NCBI GenBank assembly: GCA_015066345.1
Contig: SVOQ01000009.1
Coordinates: 24,748-88,747, forward strand
DNA: 64,000 bases
Direction: 5' to 3'
Source: Oscillospiraceae bacterium
GTDB taxonomy: Bacteria > Bacillota > Clostridia > Oscillospirales > Acutalibacteraceae
This document shows positions 52,406 through 54,807 of this stretch, in pieces. Positions within the stretch are counted from its first letter, which is position 1. The number at the start of each line of letters is the position of its first letter. A model generated the notes under the pieces. The model did not search any database. It was not told the origin of the DNA and saw only the letters and a list, made by a program, of their open reading frames with translations. The position numbers were made by a program, and so were the translations under genes.

Positions 52406-52685
52406 AAGTTAAAGTAATATTATCCCCTATTTTTTAATGGGGGATATTTTTGTCTGTTTTTTATGGGATTCGACCACTTCGTCGTCATTAAACATAAAAA
52501 AACAGAACTACACGACACAAAAGTAATTCTCTTTTTAATTAATAATCCGTATGGTAAGCAGTTTTTCTCCTTTCCCTCTTATCTCTTCTCTGGAAAAGTC
52601 GTGTGTTTTAGAAAATAGTGAAAAGGTAAAAGAAAAAAGTGAAAAGAACAAAAAGAAAAAGCCGCTCAAAAGCGACTTTTCTTTT

Positions 52686-52776
52686 TGGTGCCGGTGACCG
52701 GGGTCGATGGGCTCTGCCCATCATTCGCTACGCGAACACCCGATTATGTTCGGCTTCGCCGAGGCGGTTCGACCCC
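52686..52776 (-). repeat. tRNA-Leu-associated three-hairpin element (3' tRNA copy + core + inverted T-arm)
   Basis: 24-bp direct repeat of tRNA-Leu 3' end (52684-52707 vs 52830-52853); core TCGGCGAAGCCGA-ACATAATCGGGT-GTTCGCGTAGCGAAT-GATGGGCAGAGCCCATC on the minus strand. Confidence 0.85.
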
Positions 52777-52831
52777 TTCGTCATAATTAATCATAAAAAA
52801 AGAACTCACACATATGTGCAAGTTCTATCTT

Positions 52832-52918
52832 TGGTGCCGGTGACCGGGGTCGAACCGGTACGGTATCGCTACCACTGGATTTTGAGTCCAGCACGTCTGC
52901 CAATTCCATCACACCGGC
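52832..52918 (-). tRNA. tRNA-Leu (CAA)
   Basis: GCCGGTG..GGACTCAAAATCC..GGTTCGACCCC..CACCGGCACCA; 87 nt, type II, CCA encoded. Confidence 0.95.
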
Positions 52919-53800: not shown

Positions 53801-53932
53801 TGGTGACCCGGACGAGAATCGTCAAGGCGTTGCCTTGACGATTTGCTTCGCAAATATCCTATTTTATGTCCCTTTCGGCTCCGCCGTTCGGCGAACCGCC
53901 GAAAGATGGACGATTGTGAGTTCGATTCTCTG
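53801..53932 (-). repeat. tRNA-Glu-associated three-hairpin element
   Basis: 25-bp direct repeat of tRNA-Glu 3' end (53797-53821 vs 53987-54011); hairpins CTTTCGGC..GCCGAAAG, ATTTGC-GAA-GCAAAT, CGTCAAGGC-AAC-GCCTTGACG; inverted T-arm GAGAATCGAACTC. Confidence 0.8.
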
Positions 53933-53990: not shown

Positions 53991-54065
53991 TGGTGACCCG
54001 GACGAGAATCGAACTCGTGTTACCGCCGTGAAAGGGCGGTGTCTTAACCGCTTGACCACCGGGCC
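53991..54065 (-). tRNA. tRNA-Glu (UUC)
   Basis: GGCCCGGTGGTCAAGCGGTTAAGACACCGCCCTTTCACGGCGGTAACACGAGTTCGATTCTCGTCCGGGTCACCA. Confidence 0.96.
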
Positions 54066-54492: not shown

Positions 54493-54569
54493 GCGCCGGT
54501 AGCTCAGTTGGATAGAGTGTCTGGCTACGAACCAGAAGGTCAGGGGTTCGAGTCCCTTCCGGCGCGCCA
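54493..54569 (+). tRNA. tRNA-Arg (ACG)
   Basis: GCGCCGGTAGCTCAGTTGGATAGAGTGTCTGGCTACGAACCAGAAGGTCAGGGGTTCGAGTCCCTTCCGGCGCGCCA. Confidence 0.96.
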
Positions 54570-54624: not shown

Positions 54625-54807
54625 CGGACTCGGACCCCCACTCGCCGAAGGCGAACATAATCGGGTGTTCGCGTAGCGAACGATGGGCAGAGCCCATCGA
54701 GTCCCTTCCGGCGCGCCAAAAATAAAGTAATCACATTTGTGATTGCTCTGTTTTTTGTTGTTTCGAAATTTTGGGACTCGAACTCCCACTCGCCGAAGGC
54801 GAACATA
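54625..54807 (+). repeat. tRNA-Arg-associated three-hairpin element, one full copy plus one truncated copy
   Basis: 37-bp direct repeat of tRNA-Arg 3' end + terminator arm (54549-54585 = 54698-54734, period 149); core ACTCGCCGAAGGCGAACATA repeated at 54640-54659 and 54788-54807. Confidence 0.88.

Follow-up and report, generated by a model that had tools for sequence, protein, structure and literature searches.

The tRNA-Leu element and its relatives in the window

The element considered here occupies positions 52686–52776 (minus strand) of a 64,000-nt stretch of DNA, hereafter the window, from the genome of an Oscillospiraceae bacterium (assembly GCA_015066345.1, contig SVOQ01000009.1, positions 24,748 to 88,747). 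A tRNA-Leu(CAA) gene lies 5′ of it on the same strand, and the element begins precisely with an inverted copy of the tRNA T-arm (hereafter the arm), continues through a core of three hairpins (A, B and C), and closes with the CCA of a second copy of the tRNA-Leu tail. Related elements stand behind the tRNA-Arg(ACG) and tRNA-Glu(TTC) genes of the same window (Table 1). The analyses presented here demonstrate that such elements recur as units behind many different tRNA genes, always joined at the same base step, and we suggest that they may be small integrative cassettes.

A preliminary description of the locus had proposed that both sides of the hairpin A stem change together between the Leu and Arg copies, so that pairing is kept, that a shared core is combined with a host-derived tRNA part and that both copies break at the T-loop CGA. 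The two hairpin A sequences are as it gave them (in the Arg copies TCGCC-GAA-GGCGA, at 54642–54654 and 54790–54802 of the plus strand), with four hairpin A matches in the window against 0.10 expected from shuffles; the 3′ part that it took to be Leu-specific (CGACCCCGGTCACCGGCACCA) is identical throughout to the tRNA-Leu(CAA) tail; and the Leu and Arg units both join at the CGA. It had overlooked the nature of the 5′ end, a reverse-complement copy of the host T-arm that forms a closing stem (P1) with the tail, as well as the terminator in each unit, the arrays, the gene-bearing units and the use of ssrA.

Table 1. Features of the Leu, Arg and Glu arrays (positions in the window)
Feature	Position	Strand	Basis
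Host tRNA-Leu(CAA)	52832..52918	-	ARAGORN, Rfam RF00005
Terminator 1 and spacer (~17 nt, between terminator 1 and arm), AAGATAGAACTTGCACATATGTGTGAGTTCTTTTTTT + ATGATTAATTATGACGA	52778..52831	-	Read from sequence; hairpin and T-run straight after CCA
5′ arm GGGGTCGAACCGC, reverse complement of tRNA-Leu T-arm, pairs with tail (P1)	52764..52776	-	Sequence, pairing analysis
Hairpin A TCGGC-GAA-GCCGA, Leu unit	52750..52762	-	Pattern search, pairing analysis
Conserved linker ACATAATCGGGTG	52737..52749	-	Alignment A2
Hairpin B TTCGC-GTA-GCGAA	52724..52736	-	Alignment, pairing analysis
Hairpin C GATGGGC-AGA-GCCCATC, ends at junction CAT/CGA	52706..52722	-	Alignment, pairing analysis
Second tRNA-Leu tail CGACCCCGGTCACCGGCACCA (C56–A76)	52686..52706	-	21/21 identical to last 21 nt of tRNA-Leu(CAA)
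Terminator 2, sequence unlike terminator 1	52648..52685	-	Read from sequence, trailer comparison
Leu array remnant: T-run, spacer and arm, no core; 34 nt, 88% like 52768–52801	52469..52502	-	Repeat family D6
Host tRNA-Glu(TTC)	53991..54065	-	tRNA gene prediction
Glu unit: arm 53916–53930, different (‘type 3’) hairpin core, second tail 53801–53821	53801..53930	-	Sequence
Host tRNA-Arg(ACG)	54493..54569	+	tRNA gene prediction
Arg unit, 5′ arm (inverted T-arm)	54625..54639	+	Sequence
Arg unit, core: hairpins A, B, C	54642..54697	+	Pattern search, pairing analysis
Second tRNA-Arg tail, then second terminator; 90% identical over 60 nt from T-loop	54698..54718	+	Repeat comparison
Second Arg unit, truncated: arm, hairpin A and ACATA, beyond which the sequence is unrelated	54773..54807	+	Sequence, repeats

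A single junction and a host-matched arm

Our collection comprises 100 distinct tail-to-tail units located behind tRNA genes of 23 isoacceptors, all of which (100/100) share one junction, T55/C56. Identity to the host tRNA is 95–100% from C56 to about C75 and falls upstream to 74% at T55, 21% at T54, 6% at G53 and 5% at position 52, which places the join between T55 and C56; the tail is perfect in 78/100 units. The junctions are thus not scattered, in a search that demanded a near-complete tail and that units joined elsewhere could escape, and the combination of a shared core with a host-derived tRNA part extends to the whole set. An element-centred listing of 99 core copies showed no unit joined at another base: for 71 copies a tRNA is annotated no more than 700 nt upstream, 10 lie too near the end of a contig, and most of the remaining 18 come after a tRNA or tmRNA tail, a later array unit or cargo.

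The arm contains more than P1 needs. At three positions it matches the complement of the other T-stem strand (91, 96 and 89%), and the discriminating positions follow the host’s own tRNA strand in 25 cases versus 7 for a simple palindrome and 10 for neither. Behind tRNA-Arg(CCG) of the window genome (G000), an inverted T-arm is present alone after the terminator, the core and second tail being gone (L059).

Pairing within the core

Considering P1 and hairpins A–C in 29 elements, 98.1% of cells are paired versus 89.5% in shuffles, and 64 cells carry double changes versus 16.2, a number reached by 0/500 shuffles (kinship inflates such counts). The covariation, assessed by shuffling and sliding in place of R-scape, resides mainly in P1, where 96% of cells are paired and 5/8 pairs show double changes; sliding the partner by 1–3 columns reduces pairing to 24–46%. 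The covariation proposed initially, which is weak for two copies of hairpin A alone (one G-C/C-G swap), lies far above shuffles across the 29 elements. The two hairpin A forms (TCGGC/GCCGA and TCGCC/GGCGA, differing by that swapped pair) occur 19:10 among 29 sequences, and both can be found within one array (L004, units 1 and 2). DNA folding of two window elements gave z = -3.9 and -3.7.

G-T pairs number 15 among about 1,595 (about 1%), and the loops are trinucleotides: GAA in 80/82 copies of hairpin A, while hairpins B and C mostly have A/G-N-A with a closing C-G pair (nearly all in C). Loops of the R-N-A type are known from unusually stable DNA mini-hairpins such as GCGAAGC. Since a terminator precedes the core in each unit, the core probably lies outside the tRNA transcript. 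Judged from sequence, the rare G-T pairs, the trinucleotide loops and the position of the terminator suggest folded DNA rather than RNA. An open frame (..DGLCPSFATRTPDYVRLRRGG.., e.g. L106, 2446–2800) runs along the reverse strand of core copies and is a likely source of spurious hypothetical proteins.

Family size and distribution

In the window genome, which is 98% complete at 2.33 Mb, units follow the Arg, Ser(gga), Ser(gct), Leu(caa), Leu(tag), initiator-type and elongator Met, Ala, Pro(ggg), Gln(ctg) and Glu tRNAs. The 3′ ends of ssrA (tmRNA) also carry units (L138, L161 and L177, recognized by reading the sequence rather than by a tmRNA search). Element sequence was found in 61 stretches of genome contigs, all from metagenome-assembled genomes (MAGs) of uncultured Clostridia, Oscillospiraceae or Ruminococcaceae, whose source labels, where present, name deer, cattle, goat, sheep, yak or buffalo gut. 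All of the data are assemblies, mostly MAGs, in which arrays of near-identical units may be collapsed or broken.

Units occur in one genus and in at least four other genera of its family. A covariance model recovered the same architecture in other genera (G232, and the g156 genomes G176, G264 and G328) and the type-3 version of the core in G141 and G078. In total it matched 15/300 genomes of the family, a few weakly and without the architecture; as the large searches were strictly filtered, this distribution is a lower bound. Weak matches within the family (L178, L179) and matches in other families of the order (L205–L207) lack the architecture and were taken as chance. Apart from tRNA, an Rfam scan gave nothing above the gathering score. 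No element match was obtained in IMG/VR viral contigs, phage records or plasmid records, and carriage by a virus or plasmid was rejected on these zero matches.

Arrays, order of insertion and cargo

Where tRNA-Glu is free of units (L116), a single terminator is present; it corresponds to the one that closes the window Glu array and not to the first. Similarly, the last trailer is common to species, and the inner ones differ, at tRNA-Pro(ggg) in G000 and G012 and at tRNA-Thr(cgt) in G019 and G021. Since the native terminator is the last one in comparable species, the place of the units is between T-loop and native tail, and these comparisons support the view that units enter at the T-loop, where they would supply the tail and terminator now in use. 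The tail-to-tail distance is mostly 110–139 nt and units are mostly ~149 bp, with a core of ~70 nt. In 27/68 arrays the tail copy runs past the CCA, many such copies ending near the terminator T-run, and several arrays close with a unit broken inside the core.

Some units carry genes: a DUF4760 and an Amidase_3 protein (L106), lipoprotein-like genes and DUF6054 (L122), DUF4241 with one unknown gene at tRNA-Thr in two species (L123, L121), and a 5.8-kb restriction/abortive-infection set (AIPR, GmrSD-HNH, EcoRI-type methylase and Abi_2; L214). Another stretch, 9.7 kb long and carrying a two-component and ABC-transporter-like set, has a damaged distal tail (L215). In the Thr pair (L121/L123) the gene-bearing and hairpin units stand in opposite order, and the gene-bearing unit has neither arm nor core, the T-arm itself forming its end. 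No integrase was recognized among the cargo proteins examined in gene-bearing units, and the ~149-bp units are too small for one.

Other repeats share these neighbourhoods. The terminator-like repeat TATTGAGTATTCATAAGGGATTTGACCTGTGAATACTCAATTTTTT occurs directly after the CCA at different tRNAs in different genera and also away from tRNA (L020, L029, L113, L171, L186, L009, L022). The sequence TATTGAGTATTC, behind several last tails, was considered as an island end and rejected because it is found away from tRNA (L022) and before unrelated genes; we treat it as a dispersed terminator repeat. A second hairpin repeat system, with variable-stem hairpins and fixed spacers of ~9 nt (AATGAAGTT, AGTGATATT, GTGAAATA, AATGATGT), often begins just after a tRNA CCA, as at L048 and L050 (G000, behind tRNA-Thr and tRNA-Cys), with further loci at L013 (G000 C24), L060, L151, L078 and L174.

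Proposed mechanism and points against it

We propose that the units are small integrative cassettes with a folded-strand attachment site in which the arm serves as splint and specificity guide. The confidence we place in this falls just short of even, and we favour it ahead of decayed conventional islands and enzyme-free template switching. Each unit would consist, in order, of the T-loop CGA, host tail, CCA, terminator, spacer (or cargo genes), inverted T-arm and hairpin core, and would join the host gene at T55/C56, regenerating the tRNA with the unit’s own tail and terminator; each new unit would push the native tail and terminator outward, in agreement with the comparative terminators. The arm and hairpins A–C may represent the element’s half of the attachment site, as a folded single DNA strand in which hairpin C runs up to the junction and the arm is predicted to pair both with the tail and, over three bases or more, with the opposite side of the T-stem. 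Because it would pair with both sides, the arm could splint the two ends for joining and restrict each unit to its own tRNA. Arrays would grow and shrink through exchange between near-identical units, neighbouring accessory genes may get trapped between two junctions, and the recombinase would act in trans or be rare. That the whole is a base-pairing-programmed tRNA cassette system, its arm a guide copied from the target T-arm and its enzyme an undescribed type of recombinase or a host enzyme such as Xer, is possible, if doubtful; if true, one conserved core would be re-addressable to almost any tRNA or tmRNA, restoring its target exactly.

Several observations weigh against the cassette proposal, most of them concerning the enzyme, whose absences were scored in genomes 93–98% complete with one domain per enzyme class. 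Among the genomes searched, none of the recombinases varies in step with the elements. The richest genomes hold one or two tyrosine recombinases (G000 and G009 one PF00589 protein each); serine recombinase (PF00239) is absent from the two richest, G008 and G009; Y1 is absent from G006, G008, G009 and G014, all element-bearing, among 28 genomes searched; the IS110 (DEDD) recombinase is absent from G000, G006–G009, G013 and G232; and no reverse transcriptase (PF00078) was found in G000, the one genome covered by that search. Moreover, in both G000 and G012 the last tail of the tRNA-Pro(ggg) array is immediately followed by a large serine-recombinase gene in reverse orientation (L009, near 1870–2640, G000 C30:146565–146975, and L029; shortened in G000), so that a conventional integrase could have operated there. 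Neither a circular form nor excision nor movement was seen in the assembled sequence, the fitting of one core with the arm and tail of a new tRNA is left unexplained, and ordinary unequal crossing-over could be the source of tandem identity.

Particular enzymes were considered and rejected. A serine recombinase as general enzyme, and likewise IS110 with a bridge RNA, were set aside given the absence of the respective recombinase from the richest genomes. For an integron integrase, the window genome offers an Xer-like protein only: its PF00589 protein, encoded beside a SpoIIM-like gene and others of housekeeping type, resembles a housekeeping Xer. A retroelement, retron or group II intron, prompted by the copied tail often ending near the T-run, was rejected as G000 lacks a reverse transcriptase. 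G000 does contain a partial IS200 TnpA and a RAYT-like gene, with flanking repeats unrelated to the elements; the latter, a Y1 gene (L165, G000 C30:101456-101791), is located between copies of its own repeat AATCAGGGGACGGTTCTGTGATTGAC. RAYT/REP or IS200/IS605 activity was rejected because of this separate repeat and because Y1 is missing from element-rich genomes. Across the genus members G000, G006–G009, G011, G013, G014, G019 and G020, element number is inversely related to tyrosine-recombinase number (Spearman -0.79, n = 10, p = 0.007, no phylogenetic correction), which might point to protection of the sites, or to nothing more than genome streamlining.

Alternative explanations

As a rule an integrase recognizes just one tRNA or a few, and the presence of one core at 23 isoacceptors sits poorly with the view that the units are att scars, left by phages or islands whose T-loop-specific tyrosine or serine integrases inserted repeatedly and which then decayed. 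In that case the arm and core would be the P-arm of attP, and the 149-bp units islands deleted down to their attachment sites; the inverted T-arm, however, varies with each host, unit size is nearly constant rather than scattered as after independent deletions, integrases are fewest in element-rich genomes, and viral, phage and plasmid records gave no match. We consider this explanation unlikely, although island-type cargo in some units and the serine-recombinase gene behind the tRNA-Pro(ggg) array speak for it, as does the known T-loop insertion of the Dehalococcoides ssrA islands, with tandem ~20-bp tail repeats, a conserved motif and a serine recombinase (PMC3146451).

Marginally less likely, in our judgement, is an origin without any dedicated enzyme, by polymerase template switching at the quasi-palindromic T-arm to make arm, core and copied tail, with gene conversion through the common T-loop sequence spreading the core and unequal crossing-over building the arrays. 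Template switching predicts an arm that is an exact inverted copy of local sequence, as observed, and the direct duplication of tail and terminator (beyond the CCA in the arrays noted above) and the failure of our searches to find a dedicated enzyme are in keeping with it; but it accounts neither for the one fixed junction base in 100 units nor for the conserved linker and maintained pairing of three hairpins, and the inverted tail expected beside the arm is not seen. Finally, a transcribed unit might regulate the tRNA, through arm:T-arm pairing or a second tail replacing the first. Complementarity of the arm to the cognate T-arm and the high proportion of intact tails fit such an RNA function, which we nevertheless regard as highly improbable considering the terminator before every core with a spacer of only about 15 nt, the near absence of G-U pairs, the many arrays that end in cut-off units, and the units that lie kilobases apart with cargo between and would not work in this way.

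Comparison with known systems

The 3′ ends of tRNA genes are very common landing sites for bacterial mobile DNA. Among published cases the Dehalococcoides ssrA island family, inserted in the middle of the T-loop with a conserved motif adjoining each repeat, is the closest; those islands are ssrA-specific and kilobases long, and many carry a serine-recombinase integration module (PMC3146451). In contrast, the present units use 23 isoacceptors as well as ssrA, are mostly ~149 bp with no recombinase inside, and have a host-matched inverted T-arm and a covarying hairpin core. A CcrB-like serine recombinase of the Dehalococcoides type does not fit G008 and G009, which have no PF00239 protein; one stands beside tRNA-Pro in G000 and G012.

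Integron cassettes have one crossover in the 3′ arm, and the newest unit comes first. The present units resemble them in a single crossover point in the 3′ arm, an apparently newest-first array and, in some, single-gene cargo. Cassettes also share inverted-repeat arms at the cassette end and structure that is kept more than sequence (PMC3053210, PMC11641012). As with the R″/R′-type arms of attC, P1 pairs around the crossover; unlike attC, there are no L″/L′ boxes and no variable terminal loop in one long stem, the core consisting of three independent hairpins and a linker. Further differences from integrons are the lack of an IntI-type integrase, a tRNA T-loop as receiving site, and a tRNA tail and terminator in each cassette.

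Cis-mobilizable elements (CIMEs) are att-flanked, lack recombination genes, accrete in tandem and derive from a resident integrative and conjugative element (ICE) with the same att site; att-flanked tandem units without recombination genes are found here too, whereas no ICE with the same att was seen. REP/REPIN and IS200/IS605 ends are DNA hairpins with a guide-like strand that pairs with the joining site. The present units may be analogous in both respects and differ in that Y1 is missing in several element-rich genomes; REP elements, moreover, do not duplicate a tRNA tail. In tRNA-targeting tyrosine-integrase islands (Islander, PMC4383910; sublocations of Williams 2002) the interrupted tRNA is restored and the 3′ fragment displaced to the far end, an arrangement found here as well; the present units differ in that they have no integrase gene, use one core for many tRNAs and are ~100 times smaller.

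The elements mark where gut bacteria with few integrases gather accessory genes, including defence genes, and they offer a clear system for testing the origin of tRNA-linked arrays. A core of ~70 nt with matching arm and tail at 23 isoacceptors and ssrA implies re-addressable integration, or else some unknown kind of copying that takes place at T-arms. The arrangement as a whole works like an integron cassette or a T-loop island, and departs from both families in the features by which each is defined.
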